Shown here piece after piece: positions 6,871 to 57,393 of a DNA stretch of 64,000 bases; position 1 is the stretch's first letter; every line of letters begins with the position of its first letter. A model generated the notes under the pieces. The model was given only the letters and a program-made list of their open reading frames with translations, made no database searches and had not been told where the DNA came from. The DNA is from Phycisphaerae bacterium (lineage in GTDB: Bacteria; Planctomycetota; Phycisphaerae; UBA1845; Fen-1342), in NCBI GenBank assembly GCA_030612705.1, contig JAUWNI010000002.1:1-64000 (forward strand). Direction: 5' to 3'. A program made the translations under genes and the position numbers.

Positions 6871-7000
6871 GACGAGCACTCCCTGGTTTCGGGACGCCCG
6901 GCCGCGATATAATCATTGTGGCCAATCGTCCGCATCGTGCCATTGTGTCGCAACGCCGCAAATACTACACTATTTGCGCTGCCAGCAAAGGAGGTGTTCC

Positions 7001-7387
7001 GTGGCCGATTGCTTTGAAGGAAAAACGATTCTGATCGTGGACGACGATCCCGATATTCTGACGGCCATCACGACCAGCCTCGCCGACACCGGAGCCACGC
7101 TGGAGACGGCCGCCGATGGGAACACCGCCGTCGCGCTGGCCGAGGAAAAGAAGCCGGACCTGGTGATTCTCGACATCATGCTCCCACAGAAAAGCGGCTT
7201 TCTGGTGCTCGAACGCATACGTCAAGGCAAGCGGCGTGGCGAAAAGCCGCACGTAATCATGATCACCGGGAATCAGGGACGCCGCCACCGTCAGTATGCC
7301 GAGACCCTCGGGGTTGACGAGTACCTGAACAAGCCGTTCCGGATGGAGCGGCTGGTGGAAGCAACAGAGAAGCTGCTGTCGGACTGA
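7001..7387 (+). CDS. Single-domain response regulator (CheY-like), GTG start
   Basis: KTILIVDDDPDIL...PDLVILDIMLPQKSGF...NKPF; AAAGGAGGTG ribosome-binding site just before GTG at 7001. Confidence 0.93.
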   Translation: MADCFEGKTILIVDDDPDILTAITTSLADTGATLETAADGNTAVALAEEKKPDLVILDIMLPQKSGFLVLERIRQGKRRGEKPHVIMITGNQGRRHRQYAETLGVDEYLNKPFRMERLVEATEKLLSD

Positions 7388-7393
7388 CGCACG

Positions 7394-7515
7394 GGTGCAC
7401 GACAGTTTTGGCGGGCACTGTGTAGGCCGGGAAACGTAGCGTGGGCCCCCCCCGATACTGGGCGGGCGCGGCCTCCAAAACCCGGTAAACCGTCGGACTC
7501 GTAGGGCCTACGCTA
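7394..7515. repeat. H-family palindromic repeat, left half plus core
   Basis: GGTGCACGACAGTTTTGGCGGGCACTGTGTAGGCCGGGAAACGTAGCG is the inverted match of the 5'-GCTACGTTTCCCGGCTTACACAG end at 5266-5305. Confidence 0.65.
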
Positions 7516-7596
7516 CAGGAATTCGGCCGTCGAAGACTTTTACGGCGGACTGCTAACTTGACCAGTGTAGTGAGAATCTAGCCTGGAGAGAGACCC

Positions 7597-8571
7597 ATGT
7601 GGTATGTTTGGACCGCCGTTCTTTGTTTTCAATTAGCCGTGTGTCAGGCTTGTGCGCCGGGGGCGACCGTAACGCCGGAACCGACAACGCCCGAGACAGT
7701 TTCGTCACAAACGCCGCCGCCGTCATCGCCGGCGCCCAAAACCGACCAGAAAACAGAACTGGCGGATACGCCGGCCGCCCCGCCCCCGCCGAAGGAGAAG
7801 GAGCCGGAAATCACGTTGCCGACCGGACCGATGCGGGTAGAGCCGTGGGCGCTATCCGAGTCGCGGAACCGATACGATAGCGATGTGCCGCCGAATGTTT
7901 CGGAGCCGACGCTCGCCCTGCGGGCGAAGCTGACCGGCGAGCGTCTGGTGCATATGGTTGGCCGCGGCGAGTTGATCATCGAGGAGATGGTCGACGACAC
8001 CGGAGCGATACTGAAGTCGTTGGCGGACTACAAGACGCGCGAACTGACGAAGACCTACTCGATACGCGCGGGCAAGCGGATGATGATGACAGGTTTCGCG
8101 AGCCTGACCGTGAACGCGAAGGCCACCAGCCGCCAGGCACGCAAGCTCACGAAGGTCAAAGGCTACGTAAACGTGGTCTACGCGACCGAGACCGAAGAAA
8201 TCATGATCGACAACCCGCTGCAATATCTCGGAAGTTACATCGAACATCCGCGGCTAAAGGAAGTGGGGCTCAAGATCAAAGTGATCTCTCCGGGTAAGGA
8301 AACCAAGGACAGGCGCGATACCAGCGGCATGGCATTGGAATACGAGGACGGGGCCCGCAAGCACATCCGAAAGCTCGAGTTCTTCGACGCGTGGTTGAAA
8401 CCGCTGTACGCGCGGGAGCGCCCGGCGGAAAAACCGGACGGGAGTGAATACGTCTTATACAACATCGTCGCTGGGCAGATGAACGCCGACACGCAGATGC
8501 TGCTGAAGTTCTACCCGGAGATCGAGGAGGAAAAGGTCGAATTCACATTTGAAGACCTTGAACTTCCATAA
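7597..8571 (+). CDS. Hypothetical secreted protein with Pro-rich linker
   Basis: N-terminal hydrophobic segment with cysteines, TPEPTTPETVSSQTPPPSSPAPK linker, no recognised family. Confidence 0.7.
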   Translation: MWYVWTAVLCFQLAVCQACAPGATVTPEPTTPETVSSQTPPPSSPAPKTDQKTELADTPAAPPPPKEKEPEITLPTGPMRVEPWALSESRNRYDSDVPPNVSEPTLALRAKLTGERLVHMVGRGELIIEEMVDDTGAILKSLADYKTRELTKTYSIRAGKRMMMTGFASLTVNAKATSRQARKLTKVKGYVNVVYATETEEIMIDNPLQYLGSYIEHPRLKEVGLKIKVISPGKETKDRRDTSGMALEYEDGARKHIRKLEFFDAWLKPLYARERPAEKPDGSEYVLYNIVAGQMNADTQMLLKFYPEIEEEKVEFTFEDLELP

Positions 8572-28030: not shown

Positions 28031-29065
28031 CTATGGGCAGGTCTCGCCATAGTGCCCCAGCAACTCGGCGAGGTCAGCTAGGTCCACGTCCCCGTCGCCG
28101 TCGACGTCAGCCGACGTACAGCAATCGCCCGTGGTAAGGAGACGTTCTACGCTGGACCAAGGTCCCTCGTCAGCGCCCACACCGCCGACGGCATACACGC
28201 CGATACCGAAAGCCCCGAGGCCATGGTACATACGGTCGTAGTGCATGTCAGGGCCTTCGAGCCACCCCTCTTCTGGGGCATCGGTGTCGTAGACCCAAAC
28301 GTGGTTGTCGACCGTCGCGCTGCTGCCGGGACGTCCCCCTGTCAGGTAGATTCTGTTGCGTACATCAACCGCTGCCGGACCGTTTCGCAGCTCTGGCAAT
28401 GGACCCAGGTCAGTCCAGCCAACACCTTCCTCGAACTTCTCGAACCAGGTTTGACCCGGTGAGTCAGAGCCGCCGTGCGTAGTTCCGCCCATCACATAGA
28501 TGGCATCGCCGACAACCGCGCTGGCGCGCCGTCCACCCGCGTAAACCATGTTCGGCCCGTCGGTCCAGGTGTCTGTGTCGGGATCGTAGATGTAGGTTTC
28601 ATCGGCGGGACCAGTATCGCCACTGCGGAAACCGCCGAACAGGTAAATCTTACCGTTGAGTGCTTCGGCTGATGGGATGAACCTCGCCTCTGGCAAGTCC
28701 GCGACCTGCTCCCAGCCCTCGCCTGGCGTGTACCGTTCACAAGTAGTTCCTCCTCCAGCAAAGTAAACGGAGCCATCGAGCACAACCACACCCGGTGCCC
28801 CTTGGTGATGGTACATCGCCGCTGGGTGTGTGGTGTCAATGCCTTCCCACGGGTCGAACGACCAGATTTGATCTACAGGATCCGCGTGGAGGAAGAGCCA
28901 CAGCTTCTCTGGGCCTTGATTCATGTAGAAGCCTGTCGGTTCCGGCGTAACGTGGGTTGTGATCTTCCACCAGCATTCGTCTCCCCGCGCCGGTGCGCAC
29001 AACAGCACGACCACTACGCCGAGAACCAGGGAACCCCTGTTTACACTTGCTCTACTCCATCTCAT
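28031..29065 (-). CDS. Secreted Kelch-repeat protein with dockerin-like C-terminus
   Basis: Kelch motifs (LNGKIYLFGGF, VGDAIYVMGGT, VRNRIYLTGGR, GIGVYAVGGV); C-terminal ADVDGDGDVDLADLAELLGHYGETC; signal peptide. Confidence 0.85.
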   Translation of the reverse strand: MRWSRASVNRGSLVLGVVVVLLCAPARGDECWWKITTHVTPEPTGFYMNQGPEKLWLFLHADPVDQIWSFDPWEGIDTTHPAAMYHHQGAPGVVVLDGSVYFAGGGTTCERYTPGEGWEQVADLPEARFIPSAEALNGKIYLFGGFRSGDTGPADETYIYDPDTDTWTDGPNMVYAGGRRASAVVGDAIYVMGGTTHGGSDSPGQTWFEKFEEGVGWTDLGPLPELRNGPAAVDVRNRIYLTGGRPGSSATVDNHVWVYDTDAPEEGWLEGPDMHYDRMYHGLGAFGIGVYAVGGVGADEGPWSSVERLLTTGDCCTSADVDGDGDVDLADLAELLGHYGETCP

Positions 29066-45909: not shown

Positions 45910-47970
45910 GTGCCGGCGAAATACGGAATTCATATGATAGTCCCGCGCTGGAGACACTCGCTGAAGTGGCGCATCGTTGCCAGCTACTCGATGATCTTGA
46001 TCGTCGGGGGGGTGTCCACCTCGCTCATCGGGATTCGCGTCACCGGTCGCGCGCTGCTTCAACAAGCCCAGTACCAGGCCAATGCCGGCCTCTCCCACGC
46101 CCACACCATCTACATGAATCGGCTCACCGAACTCCGACAGAACGTAGAGCTACTGGCCACGAGCCGACGGGTGTGTGAGGCCCTCACGAGCACTGAGCCG
46201 GCAGCCGCCCGTGACTTCGTCAGGAGCATGCGGGAGGCCCGCGACTTGGATTTCCTGTCCATCGCGGACGCTGCCGGACGGGTCGGGTTTCGAACGACGG
46301 GAACGGGTATCACCGGGGATAACGTCGCTGACCTCGCGCCGATCGCGCGAGCGCTCAGCGGTGAACCGACCGCGAGCACCGAGCTGCTCGGGCGCGCGCG
46401 GCTTGAGCGGGAAGACCCCACTCTGGCGGCGCGGATCGGCATCAAGCTGGTACAACCCTCCCCGACCGGTTCGCGGGCCGAGAGGGCCCTGGACGCCGGC
46501 TTGGTCCTGCTCGCCGCGGCACCGGTAAAGGACCAGGAGGGCCGCGTCGTGGCGGCCCTCTACACAGGTAAGCTGCTCAACGAAACCGATGCCGGCTACG
46601 ACTCGAACGAGTGTCATGGGATCGTGGATCAGATCAAGAACGAATTGTTCCCCGGCTTACAGTTCCAGGGCCGGCCCGTGGGCACCGCGACCATCTTCCA
46701 AAACGATGTCCGCATCACCACGAATGTCATGGGCGCCGACGGCCGCCGCGCCCTGGGAACACACGTTTCCCGCGAGGTTTATGACGCCGTCATGATCCAA
46801 GGCAAGACCTGGCACCATCGAGCCTTCGTCGTGAACGACTGGTACACATCCGCCTACGAGCCGATCACAAACCTGGCCGGCGAGCGCATCGGCATGCTCT
46901 ATGTGGGTCTGCTGGAACGGCCGTATACCGCCATCCGCGACAACGTCACCATGGCCTTCGCGGGAATCGCCCTGTTCTGCTTTGCTCTGATCGTCGTGGT
47001 TACCTACTTCCTCACTCGGAGCTTGATGCGGCCGCTCGAAGAGATGGTCACCGTTTCCCAGAAGATTGCCGGCGGCGATCTGAATCAGCGCGTTCAAGTA
47101 ACAGACCGGAACGAGTTTGGTCTGCTGTCCGATTCGTTTAACACCATGCTCGACCGCATCGGCGAAATGAACACCCAGCTCGAGCAATGGGCTGAGACGC
47201 TCGAACAGAAAGTCCACGAGCGCACCGAACAGCTTGCCAGGACCCAGACCGCGATGGCTCGCCAGCAGCGCCTCGCGGCCCTCGGCCAGCTTGCCGCCGG
47301 CGTCGCCCACGAGATCAATAACCCCCTTACCGGCGTGCTGACCTTTGCTTACCTGCTACGGGACAAAGAGAACGTCGATAAGCAGGACCGGGAAGACCTG
47401 GACGTGATCATCAACGAGACGACTCGGGCAGGTGAGATCGTTGCCAGGCTGCTGGATTTTGCTCGGGAAAGGCCGTCGGCGAAAGAACCACTAAGCATTA
47501 ATGATGTGATTCGACAGACCGTGCGACTTATACGCAACCAGAAAAAGGTCGAGCAGATTACGATCGAGGAACATCTGAAGGAGGATTTGCCCAAGGTAAA
47601 GGGGGACAAGAACCAGCTTGAGCAGGTCTTGCTCAATCTGTCGCTGAACGCTTGTGAGGCCATGCCCGACGGGGGCACGCTGACGATCCGCACATCGGCT
47701 CAAGATGGAAACGTGCTGGTGAAAGTGACCGACACCGGCCACGGAATCAAGAAAGAGCATCTGGACCGGGTCTTCGAACCGTTTTTCAGCACCAAACCCG
47801 TCGGCAAGGGCACCGGCTTGGGCTTGAGCGTCAGCTACGGCATCGTGCAACAGCATGGCGGTTCCTTGGAGGTTGATAGCGTGGAGGGTGAGGGGACAAC
47901 CTTTACGATTGTCCTGCCTTCCGGCCGGGAAGCACAGTCCGACAGCCGCGAGGAAAAGGTGGACGAATGA
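45910..47970 (+). CDS. Sensor histidine kinase (periplasmic Cache-like, HAMP, HisKA, HATPase)
   Basis: [28 protein letters not shown]-box [42 protein letters not shown]. Confidence 0.95.
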
Positions 47971-49406
47971 GTGTCTCAAACGTGGAACAAGAAGATCTGC
48001 CGGAACCACAGAGAATCCTGGTCATTGACGACGAGGCGGTCGTCGGCCTGGGTTGCAGGCGCTCCCTCTGCCCCGAGGGGCATGAGGTGGAGTTCCACGA
48101 GGATTCACGCGCGGGCGTTGAAGCGGCCCTGTCGGGCGGTTTTGACGTAATCCTTGTGGACCTGATGATGCCGGAAATCGACGGCCTGGAGATACTCAGA
48201 CGCGTTAAGGCGGCCGGCGTGTCCTCTGAAGTGGTGATCATTACCGGGCATTCAACGGTGGAGTCGGCCGTGGAGGCCATGAAGAAGGGCGCCGCCGACT
48301 ATCTGAGCAAACCGTTTTCGCCGAATCAGTTGAAGATGCTCCTCCGCAAGGTCTGGGAGCGTTCCGCTTTGATCCGGGAAAACGCGGCCCTGCGGCGGGA
48401 ACTCGAGGTCGATCACGGCTTTGAAGGGATGATCGGTCAGAGTCGGTCCATGGAGCGCGTATTCTCCCTGATCAAGCGAGCGGCGCCCTCCGACGGCACC
48501 GTGCTCGTTACCGGCGAGAGCGGCACTGGAAAGGAAATGGTCGTTCAGGCGATTCACCGGCTGAGCCGGCGCAGAGATCACCCTTTGCTGGCCTGTGATT
48601 GCAGCGCCCTGGTGTCCAGCCTGCTGGAGAGCGAACTGTTCGGCCACGTCAAGGGCTCTTTCTCGGGTGCGATCGCGACAAAGCAGGGACTGTTCGAGGC
48701 GGCACACAAGGGAACCCTCTTCTTGGATGAGGTAGCCAACCTCAGCCTCGAGACGCAGGGGAAGCTGCTAAGGGTTCTGGAGACCAAACGAGTAAGAAAG
48801 GTGGGGGACACGGCCGAACGCGAAGTGGACATTCGCCTGATCGCGGCGACGAATCAAGATTTGGCGGAAATGGTGACGGAAGGTACTTTTCGCGAGGATT
48901 TGTACTATCGCCTCAACGTTGTGCCGATCTATCTGCCCCCGCTCCGCGAACGGCCGGGCGACATACCGAGGCTCGTGACGGCGTTTCTAGGGCGCTACTG
49001 CAAGCGCAATAAAGTTCCAATAAAGAGCTTCACCCCGGAGACAATGTCCAGGATTGAAAGTTACCGTTGGCCCGGCAACGTGCGCGAGCTACGGAACATC
49101 CTGGAGCGAATCGCCATCCTGTGTGACTCGGATCGTATCGAACCGAGGCACTTACCGCCGGAGATCCGCGAGGCGCCCGTGCAATCGTCCGTTACACAGC
49201 TTCCCCGAAGCTGGGATGATTTCAAAAGACTCAAACAACAAGTACGTGACGCGGCCGGCCAGGAGTTGGAACGCCGGTTCTTGATTGAAGCGCTACAGCG
49301 CTCCGGAGGAAACGTCAGCAAAGCCGCGGAAGACGTTGGTATGCAACGCACCAACTTCCACGCGCTCATGCGGAAGTACGGCCTGACCTCCGACATTACC
49401 TCCTGA
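47967..49406 (+). CDS. NtrC-family sigma54-dependent response regulator
   Basis: Receiver RILVIDDEAVVGLG/DLMMPEIDG, AAA+ GESGTGKEMVVQAIH, GSFSGA loop, Fis-type HTH; ATGA overlap with the kinase gene. Confidence 0.96.
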   Translation: MSVSNVEQEDLPEPQRILVIDDEAVVGLGCRRSLCPEGHEVEFHEDSRAGVEAALSGGFDVILVDLMMPEIDGLEILRRVKAAGVSSEVVIITGHSTVESAVEAMKKGAADYLSKPFSPNQLKMLLRKVWERSALIRENAALRRELEVDHGFEGMIGQSRSMERVFSLIKRAAPSDGTVLVTGESGTGKEMVVQAIHRLSRRRDHPLLACDCSALVSSLLESELFGHVKGSFSGAIATKQGLFEAAHKGTLFLDEVANLSLETQGKLLRVLETKRVRKVGDTAEREVDIRLIAATNQDLAEMVTEGTFREDLYYRLNVVPIYLPPLRERPGDIPRLVTAFLGRYCKRNKVPIKSFTPETMSRIESYRWPGNVRELRNILERIAILCDSDRIEPRHLPPEIREAPVQSSVTQLPRSWDDFKRLKQQVRDAAGQELERRFLIEALQRSGGNVSKAAEDVGMQRTNFHALMRKYGLTSDITS

Positions 49407-50331: not shown

Positions 50332-51252
50332 TTAGTCCACCACCCGCTGCAACGAGCCGACGCGGGGGATGATCGTGGGATCTTCACCTCCACCTTCGAC
50401 TTGCAGAACGGCGTCGTCGACGTAGAAATCGGTGGTTCCCGATACCGTGCTGACCTTCCAAAAAGCCTGCACGAGGGTCCCACCCCACGACGGAGTCATT
50501 GTGCCGGTAATCTTCGTCCAGCCACTGTCGTCAACCGAGGTCTCCCCGGCGATAAGCCAGTAGCTGTTGGGAATTGAATCCCTTACATACATGACGAATC
50601 GCATATTGGACGTGCCTGAATCCATTTTCACCCAGGCTTCCATTTCGTAGGTGGTGCCGTTTTCGAGGAAGCCGTCAACGTCCTGGGCGGAGCCGGAGTA
50701 ATACGCGTACCGGTCATCGATTAAGAGGGATGCGCTACCGCTGTGTGCATTGGGATCCGATGCTATGTCGCAATCGTATCCGTACCAACCCGACGTCCCG
50801 CTCTCCATCCCCGGATTACTCAGCAGATTCGCCGCCGCGCTGCCGCCCTCGAACTCGAGCAATATGCTGTAAGTTCGGATGGCGTCACCGGCGTAACCCT
50901 TGCCATATAGCCGAACGGGGCTGGAGGGATCGGTCGTCAGATCGCCGTAGTACCCCTCATCCACCAGCTTCCAGGTGTAGGTACCGGTTCCAATCGGCTC
51001 GTCGGACACCCAGGTATCGTGGGTGTAGGTACTTCGCCAGTTCGAATCGTTGCTGATCGTAAACGCGCCCATCTCGATCGCCGACTGGGCATGGAGACGT
51101 GCCGCGGCAGCGTCGCCTCCGCCCTCGGTCGAACGTAGCTGAATCCGGGTCACCGCCAGGGCCGACATGCCGATGATCGTTACAATCATCGCGATCATCA
51201 GGACCGCGAGGTACATCCCGCCACGATGTTGACAACGTCGAGCACGCATCAC
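50332..51252 (-). CDS. PilX/GspK-like minor pseudopilin with CBM-like C-terminal domain
   Basis: RRCQHRGGMYLAVLMIAMIVTIIGMSALAV N-terminus; NLLSNPGMESGTSGWYG...DDSGWTKITGTMT...TDFYVDDAVLQ resembles CBM4/9-type modules. Confidence 0.75.
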   Translation of the reverse strand: MMRARRCQHRGGMYLAVLMIAMIVTIIGMSALAVTRIQLRSTEGGGDAAAARLHAQSAIEMGAFTISNDSNWRSTYTHDTWVSDEPIGTGTYTWKLVDEGYYGDLTTDPSSPVRLYGKGYAGDAIRTYSILLEFEGGSAAANLLSNPGMESGTSGWYGYDCDIASDPNAHSGSASLLIDDRYAYYSGSAQDVDGFLENGTTYEMEAWVKMDSGTSNMRFVMYVRDSIPNSYWLIAGETSVDDSGWTKITGTMTPSWGGTLVQAFWKVSTVSGTTDFYVDDAVLQVEGGGEDPTIIPRVGSLQRVVD

Positions 51253-51794
51253 TCCGTCTCCGGGCCGAATTGCATGGCGTTCGTTTTAATTGCGACCAAC
51301 GAGGCGAGGGGCACATTGTTGAGCGTGACGGTGACCGTGATCCGCTTGACGCCGGTATCGCTGCCCTGGGCTAGAGCGAGGTCCGCCGGACTGACCCAAC
51401 TGACGGCGACGCTGCGGTACCAGCCGTTGAAGTCATTGAGCACGGTGCCGTCCTTTTCCTGTGGCGGGGAGGTGGACCAGCCTTCGTAGTCGTCGACGTC
51501 GTCGAATCTGTCGCGCTTGCCGCTGTTCTCTCCCCCCTCCAATCCGATGGCCGCAGCCACGTCGTCCGGCTCGATGTAGTGTTGTCGGAGGATTTCGGTC
51601 ATCAAGTCCTGTGCCAGCAGCATGGCGCGGTTGCGGTCGCCCATCTTTTTTTGGGTAGCCTGCGAGGCGCCGACGGTGTTCAGGGCGGCGACGAGCATCA
51701 CGCCGATGATGACGAGCGAGATAGCCGCCTCGGCCAGCGTCAGTGCCCGCCCGATATGGCGACGGCTCGGATTTTGCCGTAATAAAAGTCTCAT
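51249..51794 (-). CDS. GspI-like minor pseudopilin
   Basis: RALTLAEAAISLVIIGVMLVAALNTVGASQ; ATGA overlap with the next gene. Confidence 0.75.
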   Translation of the reverse strand: MRLLLRQNPSRRHIGRALTLAEAAISLVIIGVMLVAALNTVGASQATQKKMGDRNRAMLLAQDLMTEILRQHYIEPDDVAAAIGLEGGENSGKRDRFDDVDDYEGWSTSPPQEKDGTVLNDFNGWYRSVAVSWVSPADLALAQGSDTGVKRITVTVTLNNVPLASLVAIKTNAMQFGPETE

Positions 51795-51805
51795 GCCACA
51801 CTACC

Positions 51806-53461
51806 TCACTCGCTCACGCGGATGGATACATAGTCGAATTCGGCGCTGCTCCCCGCCGACAGTATCGAGGCGAAACGGTTGTTGTGCGGGGGCGTGAACG
51901 TGTTGTAAACGAACGTGCCATAGTCCTGCCCATTGACCTTGACGTTAACAACGTCGCTGCCGGGATCGATCAGCAGGCGCAGGGTAACGAAGTCGGTCGA
52001 TAACCCGAGAACCGTCACCAGGCGCATCTTCGTCGAGCTGTCCAGCTTGTGGTAAACGGTCAGCCTCTGCGTGTTATCGGGCTGAAGCTGCAAGGATGCA
52101 ATAATTTTCGCGAAGGTCGAGCCGTCCCAGTCGGCGTTGATCCGGAAGGCCGCTCCATCGCCGCCGATGCTCGTGTTCCGAAAACACACCTCGACAGTGC
52201 TCAGCGTTGTGAAGTCGTTGTTCGGGTAGGTGTCCAGCGTGACGTCGGCATCCCAGACTCCGCCGCTGAGCGAGCCCAGGTTGAACGGCCCGCCTTCGCG
52301 AACCGCCCAGTCGTCGTTCCCGTCGCCGTTGTAGTCCAAGGTCGGATCGACGTCGAAATCGGCTTCCCACAAGCCCGAGAGCAACTCGGGGGTGTTGAGC
52401 GTCTGGGCGGCGGTGACGACGCGCGCAGCCGGATCGTCACCGGCCCGCAGCGCGATCCGGACACCGGTCACATACTGGCGTGAGACGGTCAGCGGTGAGC
52501 CGGGCACCGTATACGTACCGTATACGTAATACGACAAGGATTTACCGTCGGAATACGTCCAATTGTTACCGTTATCGTTCGTCATGAAAGAGCCGGATCC
52601 GCCGTCGTTGTCGTAACGAATATCGGCCGAGGCGGCGCCCGCGCCGGAGTGCTTCAGAACAAGGCACAAACCCTCGTTGGGAGAGAGTCCGGTCACGCTG
52701 CTGAACGAGAACTCCTCCCACTGGTAGCTGCCGCCGAGGGCGGATTCCAGCATTTCCACTTCTTCGAGCAAGGTGTCGGTCGGCTTGTTGTCGGCGTCCG
52801 GCACGCGCAACTGCACCCACGTCGACTCGACCGGATCACCGGACGCTTTCGCTTCGACCTGGACCCGCGTGACTTTCCAACCGAGGGCATTCCCAGGCAG
52901 CGTGGGCTGGAAGTACTGGCCGGGCCATTTACTCACCTCGATGTTGAAGTCCATCGGATCCACCGTCGTCGTGTAATCTGACAGCGTCGTTTCAGCGCAC
53001 TCGACCGCGGGCCCGGGGTACTCCTCCGTGACGGTTTTCAGGTCATAAACGAGAACAAACTCGTTAACGTCCTCGAGGATATCAATTTCCGCGCCCCCGT
53101 TGTATTGGCGGATAAGCGCGGTCCCTGGGGCTGACCATTTGTAGCGGATTCTTTCAGGAACCCCGTCGCTATCACGGTCGGGAACCGTGAACTCGACAAT
53201 CGTCGTGGTGTGCTGACGAATCCAGATTGCGGAGCGAAGCTCTTCCACGAGCTGGTCGGCCACCTCGGCGCTTTCGACGATCGTCATGGCCCGGCTTTCA
53301 TCGTTCGGCAGGGCGTGGCCGGCGATCATTATCGCCGAGGCCAGCCCGGTCATGAGGATACTCATGATCGCCAGGCCGAGGACCATCTCAACCAGTGTGA
53401 AGCCACGGCGGGGCAGACCGAGCACCGTGTGAACCGGACAGCATCGTCTGGACGCATTCAT
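51806..53461 (-). CDS. GspJ-like pseudopilin with large beta-rich C-terminal extension
   Basis: RRGFTLVEMVLGLAIMSILMTGLASAIMIAG; >400 aa beta-rich remainder. Confidence 0.8.
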   Translation of the reverse strand: MNASRRCCPVHTVLGLPRRGFTLVEMVLGLAIMSILMTGLASAIMIAGHALPNDESRAMTIVESAEVADQLVEELRSAIWIRQHTTTIVEFTVPDRDSDGVPERIRYKWSAPGTALIRQYNGGAEIDILEDVNEFVLVYDLKTVTEEYPGPAVECAETTLSDYTTTVDPMDFNIEVSKWPGQYFQPTLPGNALGWKVTRVQVEAKASGDPVESTWVQLRVPDADNKPTDTLLEEVEMLESALGGSYQWEEFSFSSVTGLSPNEGLCLVLKHSGAGAASADIRYDNDGGSGSFMTNDNGNNWTYSDGKSLSYYVYGTYTVPGSPLTVSRQYVTGVRIALRAGDDPAARVVTAAQTLNTPELLSGLWEADFDVDPTLDYNGDGNDDWAVREGGPFNLGSLSGGVWDADVTLDTYPNNDFTTLSTVEVCFRNTSIGGDGAAFRINADWDGSTFAKIIASLQLQPDNTQRLTVYHKLDSSTKMRLVTVLGLSTDFVTLRLLIDPGSDVVNVKVNGQDYGTFVYNTFTPPHNNRFASILSAGSSAEFDYVSIRVSE

Positions 53462-53955
53462 GGTAGGTAGGCCTCCCCCGTGTCCGGATCGACCGTGATC
53501 AGTCGTTTCTCGCCCCCGACGCCGATGAGGACCGTGCCGCCGCTGTTCGGCATCCCGTAGCCGTCGAAGGTGACTGTTTCAAAGCCGGAGAAATCGACCG
53601 AGAGGATCCGGACGCGGTACGGCTCGTCGTCCAGTTCCACAATGTACTCTACGCTGGGACGATCCTGGTCGGGCATGCTCGTCAGTTTGTAGTTGTCGTC
53701 TGAGGTCTTGAAAGCGACCATCTGGCTCGCGCTCATTTGGCGGGCGTGCCGGCGCGCGAGGTTGAGATCGGCGACCACGCGTCGAGCGGCGGCATCGACC
53801 CGCTGTTGTACCGCCGCATTCGAAAAACGCGGGATCGCCATCGCCGAGATAATCGCCAGGATAGCGATGACGGTGATCATCTCGATCAGTGTGAACGCCG
53901 GTTGCCGATGGGATACAGTCATGGCGATGCGGTCCGCAGCTTGAGTTCGCGACAC
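53458..53955 (-). CDS. GspH/FimT-like pseudopilin
   Basis: QPAFTLIEMITVIAILAIISAMAIPRFSNAAVQQRVDAAARRVVADLNLARRHARQ. Confidence 0.85.
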   Translation of the reverse strand: MSRTQAADRIAMTVSHRQPAFTLIEMITVIAILAIISAMAIPRFSNAAVQQRVDAAARRVVADLNLARRHARQMSASQMVAFKTSDDNYKLTSMPDQDRPSVEYIVELDDEPYRVRILSVDFSGFETVTFDGYGMPNSGGTVLIGVGGEKRLITVDPDTGEAYLP

Positions 53956-54322
53956 GTACAGGCAGGTCCTGCGCGAAAGGCAGACAAACCCTAACCTTCA
54001 TCTTGGTATCGACGCGCGCGGGGGTGTACTTTGTTTATACGAACGATCAGCGTTCCGCCTTTGTTTTATCGGGCGCGAAGCGCCGAAAGCGCGGGCACCC
54101 CCGCACCGGGCGGCCGTAAACCGACCTTACGCCGCTAACAGCTTGGCGCGTACGAAATTAGTCCGCGCTGACACGCGTACATTTCTTGAAGTCGTCACAA
54201 AGCCAAGACCGATTACCGGTCATAGTGAATCAGGCGGCGCGCGCGGTGTCTATTGCCCGGCGACTGGCGTCGCCGCGGGCCGCGGATCAGCCGCCTCGCC
54301 CACTGATCGAGTCCAGCAAACG

Positions 54323-56296
54323 ATGGAATCAGCTACACATCAGTCAACACCGTTCGTTGAGAAACACTTTCGCTGGTGGGCTGTCCGCCCACGTGCTTTC
54401 CACACTATCGCCCTGGCTACTCTCGTGCTGGCGTTGATCGCGTCCAACCCGGCACCGGGCGATCCACCCGTCCAGCAGACGCCCGAGCAGGAGTTCTTCG
54501 CCGAGCTGCTCGCGCAATTCCTGCCGGGTGAGACGGCCGCCCCAGGCGCGGCGACGGACGGCAATCTGTTCGATCCCGGCCCGGTCACGGAACCGCTCGA
54601 CTCCTCCTCGGTCAGCGTCAGCGATGCCGGTCTGCTCGAAGTCCACGTGCGTGACATTGAAATCGCGACCGTGCTCGAGATGCTGAGTTATCAGGCCCGC
54701 TCGAATATCGTCGCGACCAAATCGGTGCGAGGGACCATTTCGGCAAACCTCTACGGGTTGACGCTGGAGGAAACGCTCGAGGCAATCCTGACGCCCAACC
54801 AGTACGCCTACCGGCAGGTCAACAAGACGATCTTTGTCGGCACGCCGGAGGAGATCGCCGCCCAGTTGCCCCCGCCGATGACGCGCGTTTTCAAGCTGAA
54901 ATACATCACCAAACGCGAGGCGTTGAACGCCGTCACCATGGTACTCGGACCCAACGGCATCGCGGTGGCCGGGGGCGAAGAGTCGGACGGCTCCTCGTCC
55001 GAATCGGAAGATGACAATTATGCTGCCACCGAGGCGAGTTCCGATTACTTGATCGTCACCGACACGCCGCAACGCCTCGCCGCGGTCGAGGCACTGCTGC
55101 GGGACATCGACGTGCGGCCCAAGCAGGTGCTGATCGAAGCTACCATCCTGCGGGCCACGCTCAACGAGGACAACCAGTTCGGCATCGACTTCACGCTACT
55201 GGGCGGGATGGACTTTGAAGACGTCAGCAGCATCAGCATCGCCTCGTCCAACCTTCTCACGGGGCAGACCCCGTCCGCAAAATTTGAACAGACGACCTTC
55301 AACGTCAACACGAATCTGATTGGTGACAACCTGGACACCGGGTTTACCTTCGGCATCATCAAGAACAGTGTCGCGACTTTCGTGCGGGCGCTCGAGGAAG
55401 TCACCGACGTCGTGGTCGTCGCCAACCCGAAAATCATCGCGCTCAACAAACAGAAGGCCGAGGTGATCGTCGGGCGTCGTGACGGCTACCTGACCACCAC
55501 CGTTACCGAAACCGCCGCCATCCAAACCGTCGAGTTCCTCGAGACCGGCACGCAGATCCGCTTTAGACCCTTCATCAACGACGACGGAACCGTCCGCCTC
55601 GCGGTTCACCCGAAAGATAGCAACGGCGGTTTGACCGCGGCCAATCTGCCGTTCGAGGAAACGACCGAGGCGCATGCCACCATCCTGGTGGACGACGGGC
55701 ACACCGTGCTGATCGGCGGGCTGTTTCGCGAGCGGACCATCAGCTCCAAGGGGCAGATTCCCGTTCTCGGCGACATCCCCATCGCGGGCCTGCTCTTCCA
55801 GCACCACAGCGACGCCACCGTACGCGAGGAAGTCATCATTCTGCTGACGGTGCACGTGCTCAAGGACACCGACGAGGAATACGAGCGTTATGCCGCCCTG
55901 CTTGACGACGTCGAACGTATCCACGTCGGCAGCCGGATGGGTCTGCTCGGCACCGGCCGCGAGCGGCTCGCCCAGGCCTTCTACCAGGAAGCGATTCGCC
56001 AAACCGAGCAAGGCAACACCGACCGCGCCCTGCTCAATACCCGCATGACCCTGCACAACAACCCCAAGCACCTGGCGGCGTTCAAGCTCAAGGAACGGCT
56101 GCTCGGCCGGCGGCTGTGGGATAACGAGGGCACCCGCACCCGACTGTTCCTGCTCGATCTGATCCGCCAGGAGCAGACTTCACTGGAAAAGACGGACAAC
56201 TCGGCATTGCTCGGTCGCCCGCCGCTCGATTTGCGAATGCACCGCGACAAGGTGCTCGAGCTGGAGAAGGAAGCCGTGACGGAGGAGGCCCCATGA
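54323..56296 (+). CDS. gspD: Type II/IV secretin (GspD/PilQ-like)
   Basis: STN-like region VEVHVRDIEIATVLEMLSYQ; secretin core VIVGRRDGYLTTTVTETAAIQTVEFLETGTQIRFRPFI...DDGHTVLIGGLFRERTISSKGQIPVLGDIPIAGLLFQH; start inferred. Confidence 0.93.
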   Translation: MESATHQSTPFVEKHFRWWAVRPRAFHTIALATLVLALIASNPAPGDPPVQQTPEQEFFAELLAQFLPGETAAPGAATDGNLFDPGPVTEPLDSSSVSVSDAGLLEVHVRDIEIATVLEMLSYQARSNIVATKSVRGTISANLYGLTLEETLEAILTPNQYAYRQVNKTIFVGTPEEIAAQLPPPMTRVFKLKYITKREALNAVTMVLGPNGIAVAGGEESDGSSSESEDDNYAATEASSDYLIVTDTPQRLAAVEALLRDIDVRPKQVLIEATILRATLNEDNQFGIDFTLLGGMDFEDVSSISIASSNLLTGQTPSAKFEQTTFNVNTNLIGDNLDTGFTFGIIKNSVATFVRALEEVTDVVVVANPKIIALNKQKAEVIVGRRDGYLTTTVTETAAIQTVEFLETGTQIRFRPFINDDGTVRLAVHPKDSNGGLTAANLPFEETTEAHATILVDDGHTVLIGGLFRERTISSKGQIPVLGDIPIAGLLFQHHSDATVREEVIILLTVHVLKDTDEEYERYAALLDDVERIHVGSRMGLLGTGRERLAQAFYQEAIRQTEQGNTDRALLNTRMTLHNNPKHLAAFKLKERLLGRRLWDNEGTRTRLFLLDLIRQEQTSLEKTDNSALLGRPPLDLRMHRDKVLELEKEAVTEEAP

Positions 56297-57393
56297 GTCG
56301 CCGACGGGTAAACAGCCTGGTCATCGTTTTCTCGGCAACGTGGCTCTGTGCGGCGGGTTGCGAATATCCCCAGAGCCGGGCGAAGCTGGAATCGACGGAG
56401 CGCTGGAACCGGGCGCGGGCGGAAATCAAGGTGAAGCTCGCGTCGGATCAGTTGGCCACGGGGCACATCGATGACGCCGCGACCGAAATCACCTCGGCCT
56501 TTCGTCTCGATCCGTCCAATCCGGAACTGCTGATGTTGCAGGCGCGGGTCTTTCTAGCGCGTGGCGACCTGGCAGCGGCGGAGCGACTGCTCACCAACGC
56601 CCAGGCCGAGGGCGAGCGGCAAGCCGAAATCGAGTATCTGCTCGGCATCATCCAGGAACAACGCCTGCGTTGGTCGGCGGCTCTCGGGCATTATCTCCGG
56701 GCCTCCGACGTCGACCCACGGGAAGTGGCTTACCTCGTCGCGATCGTGCAGGTCATGCTGCAACTCGGGCAAGCCGAGGACGCGCTCATGCTGCTCGAGT
56801 CGTACGAGCCACAATTCGGCTGGATGGGTGCCTATCATGCCACGCGAGCCGAGTGCCGTGAGCAGCTTAAAGACTGGGAAGGGGCCGCCTCCGCCTGGCG
56901 CAGGGTGGCCGACGCCAACGACGATCCAGGAACTCGCGAACGCCTGGCAATGGCCCTGTACCGCGCCGGGGACGAATCGGAAGCTATTCGACAGTTCGAG
57001 CGGCTGATCGCCGACACCGAGACGCAGCCGCCCGCCCCGCTGCGCCTGGCACTGGCGCAGTGTCTGCTCGACGAGGGGCAGCCGACGGCGGCGCAAGACC
57101 AGATCGGCTTCGTGCTGCGCGAGGATCCGCGCAACGTGCGAGCGTTGCAGCTCGTGGCCCGCGTCTTCGCTCAACAGGGACAATTCGAGCGCGCCCGCCA
57201 AACCGCCGAGCGAGCCCTGCGGTTCGCCCCGGACAGTGTGAGCGCCCTCGAACTCGCCGCCACGCTGGCATTTCGTACCGGCGATCATGACCGCGCGCTC
57301 GCGCTGGCCGAACGCATCACGCAAGTCGCGGACAGTCCGGTCGCACGGCAAATCCTGACACGACTCTCCGCGGCAACACCCGCCGCCAAGTAA
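56293..57393 (+). CDS. TPR lipoprotein (PilF-like)
   Basis: Lipobox LCAAGC, multiple TPRs; ATGA overlap with the secretin gene. Confidence 0.82.
   Translation: MSRRRVNSLVIVFSATWLCAAGCEYPQSRAKLESTERWNRARAEIKVKLASDQLATGHIDDAATEITSAFRLDPSNPELLMLQARVFLARGDLAAAERLLTNAQAEGERQAEIEYLLGIIQEQRLRWSAALGHYLRASDVDPREVAYLVAIVQVMLQLGQAEDALMLLESYEPQFGWMGAYHATRAECREQLKDWEGAASAWRRVADANDDPGTRERLAMALYRAGDESEAIRQFERLIADTETQPPAPLRLALAQCLLDEGQPTAAQDQIGFVLREDPRNVRALQLVARVFAQQGQFERARQTAERALRFAPDSVSALELAATLAFRTGDHDRALALAERITQVADSPVARQILTRLSAATPAAK

Follow-up and report, generated by a model that had tools for sequence, protein, structure and literature searches.

What is a domain of the kind carried by xylanases and mannanases doing on the last minor pilin of a filament operon? 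The question is raised by a minus-strand open reading frame at 50332..51252 of the window, by which we mean the whole 64,000-nucleotide stretch analysed, and to which all unlabelled coordinates refer. ORF detection, profile searches and an AlphaFold2 (AF2) model identify its product as a K-position minor pilin with a CBM_4_9 module. Four prepilin genes, H, J, I and K, overlap or abut on this strand: a GspH-like H-position minor pilin (53458..53955, profile matches), a 551-residue J-position one (51806..53461; profile search, AF2 and Foldseek), a 181-residue GspI/PilV-like I-position one (51249..51794, profile matches) and K, which ends the set. Start codons were assigned mechanically: counted from the GTG at 51252, the K frame 51252..50332 comprises 306 codons, and the stop codon of the I gene shares TGATG with an ATG at 51249, where translation probably begins, making a 305-residue protein the likelier product. 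On the plus strand, profile searches identified a divergent secretin gene (54143..56296; best model PilQ, E=9e-54; GspD, E=2e-50) and, overlapping it, the gene of a TPR protein (56293..57393); in one relative (L052) the TPR gene likewise abuts the secretin gene. A sensor kinase gene followed by that of a sigma-54 response regulator lies near the pilin operon (45910-49406, plus strand), and the window also encodes a Kelch-like secreted protein (28031-29065, minus strand), in which a dockerin-like repeat was recognized by eye at the end (DVDGDGDVDLADLAELLGHYG).

K is divided into three parts, all on the minus strand: a pilin module (residues 11-136, 50845..51222; AF2 and GspK profile), the jelly roll (residues 141-285, 50398..50832; Pfam, PDB sequence match, AF2 and Foldseek) and a short C-terminal tail (residues 291-306, 50335..50382), delimited by alignment, for which relatives give the consensus PGTWRREV. 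Residues 141-255 match the Pfam family PF02018 (CBM_4_9) with E=3.2e-17 and 63.6 bits, against a gathering cut-off of 25.9. In the PDB, the closest entry is CBM16-1 (2zew; E=3.9e-11, K residues 137-283) by single sequence, and the CBM22 of Xyn10C (E=2e-21) with a profile of relatives. The AF2 model, built from 15 sequences, has a mean pLDDT of 86, with values of about 85-97 in the jelly-roll block, and features a helix at residues 11-67, strands at 85-135 and the jelly roll at 141-285; its pTM of 0.57 makes the relative placement of jelly roll and pilin module unreliable. Foldseek ranks CBM22 first for this model (4xup, TM 0.82 by target length, rmsd 2.1), followed by CBM16. Residues 141-285 are, as modelled, a jelly roll of the CBM4/9 superfamily. 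The initial annotation had reported such a domain in the last gene of a pseudopilin operon, and this observation is confirmed, its place in the operon included; the residues it quoted were all found at the coordinates it gave, but on the minus strand, 50398-50829 of the plus strand not being the coding frame, and the canonical GspK alpha-domain, which it had set against the jelly roll, did not appear in the predicted structure. K contains the only CBM_4_9 domain detected in the source assembly (4.4 Mb, 89% complete), and a single-protein scan of named genomes returned CBM-like matches in only three gut-type MAGs (two Ruminococcus).

K had also been called GspK- or PilX-like, which is borne out. 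It is a K-position minor pilin, last in the H-J-I-K prepilin set, and its prepilin N-terminus (GG/MYLAV) lacks the Glu found at mature position 5 in J, I and H; K subunits usually lack this residue. The match to the GspK profile is weak, and 30 of 46 homologous pilin modules were recovered by that profile at E<=0.1 (best 3e-7). A canonical GspK it is not: K scores 19-22 bits against the GspK equivalog NF037980, far under the cut-off of 130, and Pfam finds no T2SSK alpha-domain (PF03934/PF21687) in it, the AF2 model having the jelly roll instead. A PDB profile search with the pilin module returned nothing meaningful. K does agree with the definition of modular pilins in PMC8179133, being a pilin module fused to a domain that is not pilus-specific. 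Pfam detects no N-terminal methylation signature (PF07963/IPR012902) in K, and the survey in PMC8179133, built on that signature, would thus have missed it.

A second candidate module, absent from the initial annotation, which had considered a single subunit, is found in J (P0002), whose AF2 model has a pLDDT of 89. It contains a middle beta domain (residues 161-345, 52427..52981, minus strand), delimited by AF2, which bears no Pfam name and recurs in the J of most relatives, and a C-terminal tail (residues 363-551, 51809..52375, minus strand) with a ConA/galectin-like fold according to AF2 and Foldseek. Phage fibre and baseplate proteins lead the Foldseek matches of J, followed by sialidases and galectin/ConA-like lectins, with Streptococcus sanguinis PilC (7oa7) at rank 41; the multi-domain nature of the model keeps whole-model scores weak to modest. 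Where K bears a CBM, 18 of 20 genomes have the J tail, as do both of those with another beta domain in K and the single one with LamG, and none of the 23 whose K has a beta-helix or lacks an insert (Fisher p=8e-8); these genomes share ancestry, so the p value does not establish independence from kinship, and an independent-pairs test had too few pairs to decide on a link between tail and CBM apart from ancestry. Among relatives, one J carries a PA14 domain (E=5e-28), and in relative L121 a C-terminal CBM_4_9 is located on the I-position minor pilin (6879-8087, plus strand), K being there without a detectable CBM. The I subunit of the window gave weak pilin matches only in a PDB profile search. 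Most likely, the tip carries a second lectin-fold module, the predicted J tail, beside the K jelly roll.

The machine to which these subunits belong is indicated by its partner genes. In relatives the H-J-I-K set often adjoins a secretin gene, and in L047 it is contiguous with genes for GspE, GspF, PilM, PilN, a PilO-like protein and GspG-like pilins (E-F-PilM-PilN-PilO-G-H-J-I-K). A matching cluster lies on contig C172 of the source genome, and encodes an ATPase, a platform protein, PilM, PilN, a GspM/PilO-like protein and a GspG-like pilin. This assembly ATPase scores slightly higher with the PilB than with the GspE model, both under cut-off, and exceeds the cut-off of the MshE-type c-di-GMP-binding model; the platform protein is matched best by the GspF model. 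At the inner membrane, PilM, PilN and PilO-like proteins are found instead of GspL and GspM, one part giving a weak GspM match (E=1e-4). The combination of PilM/N/O with a PilQ-like secretin is that of type IVa pili, the PilQ match of the window secretin being under cut-off. The tip adhesin PilY1 (PF05567) was not found in the source genome (89% complete), and a single weak match turned up across 41 genomes. The source genome encodes its canonical type II secretion parts elsewhere, with T2SSK_1st on contig C80 (E=7e-17) and GspL on C210, which places the H-J-I-K operon outside those sets. The system is most aptly described as a type IV filament that mixes T4P and T2SS traits. On contig C172, a STAS-domain gene, possibly regulatory, is located directly upstream of the assembly ATPase gene (L108:12836-13174, minus strand).

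K is probably the tip-capping minor pilin of this filament, its jelly roll and the J tail together forming a two-lectin-fold gripper that holds, or anchors the cell to, polysaccharide outside. We infer that K would cap a filament separate from the genome's canonical type II secretion parts, and would be displayed outside the cell. The jelly roll, of CBM4/9/16/22 type, would be held there between the pilin module and the conserved C-terminal tail, and J, in the same tip complex, would add its ConA/galectin-like tail, so that the end of the filament would present two lectin-fold grippers. Through putative glycan binding, the cell could thereby hold or anchor to extracellular polysaccharide, in adhesion or in polysaccharide capture.

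The same genes could also build a short periplasmic pseudopilus, in which the CBM and the J tail would pick out secreted proteins, or glycans bound to these, and drive them through the secretin. H-I-J-K pseudopilins are known to bind type II effectors (review PMC10191384), the pilin modules are GspH/GspI/GspK-like, the platform protein is GspF-like, and the contiguous clusters of relatives showed no retraction ATPase in the parts read. We consider this reading rather unlikely, however, since T2SSK and GspL are encoded separately, the inner-membrane parts are PilM/N/O-like, and the occurrence of several lectin-type modules, along with that of no insert at all, would be odd for a conserved substrate receptor. 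The interpretation offered by the initial annotation is hence only partly supported: with such partner machinery and its PilB/GspE-type ATPase, the type II secretion frame was not borne out, and nothing in the analysis specifically favours a substrate-recruiting piston.

The variation just mentioned, which the initial annotation had not covered, was found by comparing K homologues, with matches in 39 of 61 relatives, many of them fragmented assemblies, and in 97 of 298 genomes of a class sample, where some matches are CBM-only proteins. Aligned homologues share about 130 N-terminal residues and the C-terminal tail around PGTWRREV, the latter kept even where no insert is present, while the insert between them varies. 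No insert occurs in L047, L055, L056 and L067, and the insert is thus dispensable for assembly. Most relatives feature a beta-helix-like insert, assigned by eye, with a weak bactofilin match in 4; CBM_4_9 is found in 14 of 38 cases in the first set, with further ones in the class set, LamG in L123 (E=5e-23) and other beta domains in L044 and L122. In the K homologue of L120 (7053-9080, plus strand), CBM_4_9 is nested within the beta-helix-like insert. A tree of the pilin core, like all our trees obtained by a quick method, requires 8 state changes for the K insert and 4 for the CBM alone, 2 of the latter being forced by well-supported branches. That relatives fill this one site with lectin-like or with unrelated domains suggests exchangeable grippers on the filament. 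Repeated recruitment of the CBM from enzymes was considered and set aside: pilus CBMs fall to one side of a branch separating the enzyme CBMs (support 84, with an enzyme sample biased by having been drawn by similarity to K), which fits a single pool shuffled among pilin subunits.

A site that may be filled by a beta-helix or another beta domain, or left empty, is also what would be seen if the jelly roll and the J tail were structural, used to bulk up, stabilise or gate the tip within the secretin without binding a carbohydrate; CBM16-like domains without known ligand do exist (PMC5651945). Against this, the replacements draw preferentially on lectin-type families (CBM_4_9, LamG, PA14) and are not arbitrary folds.

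The residues of the putative binding cleft bear on the same choice. R25, W53, Y103 and E138 are what we take to be the cleft positions of CBM22; R25 and E138 mutants are visible among the CBM22 sequences of the PDB. When 22 pilus CBMs were mapped on CBM22, about half had aromatics at the positions of W53 and Y103, R25 was not conserved, and E138, as well as the CBM16 glutamines, was mostly lost. Two of the aromatic positions are kept in K itself, as Y185 and W265, and that of Y103 is Leu. Partial retention of canonical ligand residues is in line with a purely structural role, but the aromatics at W53 and Y103, kept by half of the pilus CBMs, speak against it, and we judge a structural cap unlikely.

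For tip domains gripping outside polysaccharide, the enzyme relatives hint at the ligand: within the class, related CBMs occur on proteins that bear GH30- and GH5-type domains and a GDSL esterase, partners that make plant or algal polysaccharides plausible. That the ligand is instead a polymer of the cell itself (peptidoglycan, capsule, holdfast or matrix polysaccharide), the tip anchoring or exporting its own material, is very unlikely: the MshE-type match of the ATPase would be compatible with control of matrix or attachment and K is the sole CBM_4_9 protein found in the genome, but the operon is devoid of matrix or capsule genes and the GH30- and GH5-type partners point to degradable polysaccharides.

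A broader version of the proposed role, in which I, J and K would be sockets for exchangeable lectin cassettes in a lineage-wide, polysaccharide-catching type IV filament, possibly the molecular counterpart of the polysaccharide-binding fibres seen in Planctomycetes, seems to us improbable. What a type IV filament touches is decided by the subunits at its tip. Across orthologous operons the pilin parts here stay constant and the module on display is exchanged, with two predicted lectin-type folds on one tip in the source genome. The K and J domains are defined pieces for direct binding assays, and domain exchange at the K position is documented even if glycan binding fails.

Compared with known systems, K resembles the GspK of type II secretion in position, in the missing Glu5, in having an extra domain in its globular part and in its weak profile match; it differs in that GspK has an alpha-domain, and K a beta jelly roll and PilM/N/O-like partner machinery. 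With the CBM22 (4xup, 1dyo) and CBM16 (2zew) modules that xylanases and mannanases carry, K shares the jelly roll, the resemblance to PF02018 and 18-30% identity. Those modules are enzyme-borne, whereas that of K is pilin-borne, its cleft residues are partly replaced, and a conserved PTWSGTL loop is missing in CBM22-2.

In two Planctomycetes, dextran was bound to pili-like fibres of crateriform structures, the identity of the fibre protein not being given (PMC5394234). The 16S gene of the source genome matches the planctomycete probes PLA46 and PLA886 with 3 and 2 mismatches, respectively, which suggests that the organism is probably a planctomycete. If it is one, the K/J system would be a candidate for such fibres, whose proteins that report leaves unnamed; there, polysaccharide was seen along the fibres, in other species, possibly of another class, and no data connect them to this operon.

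A close parallel is PilC of S. sanguinis, in which a tip minor pilin bears a ConA-like lectin module that binds glycans (PMC9934059): as in K and J, a lectin-fold module is mounted on a minor pilin of a tip complex, and PilC (7oa7) is itself among the Foldseek matches of J. PilC has a C-terminal lectin on a pilin with Glu5, in a monoderm type IV pilus without H-I-J-K, whereas K holds a different fold, CBM_4_9, ahead of a conserved tail, and J adds a second lectin fold. Modular pilins are widespread (PMC8179133), and no report of a CBM_4_9 minor pseudopilin was found in the open-access literature. Lectin-bearing and modular minor pilins were already known, and K is a new variant of that design.
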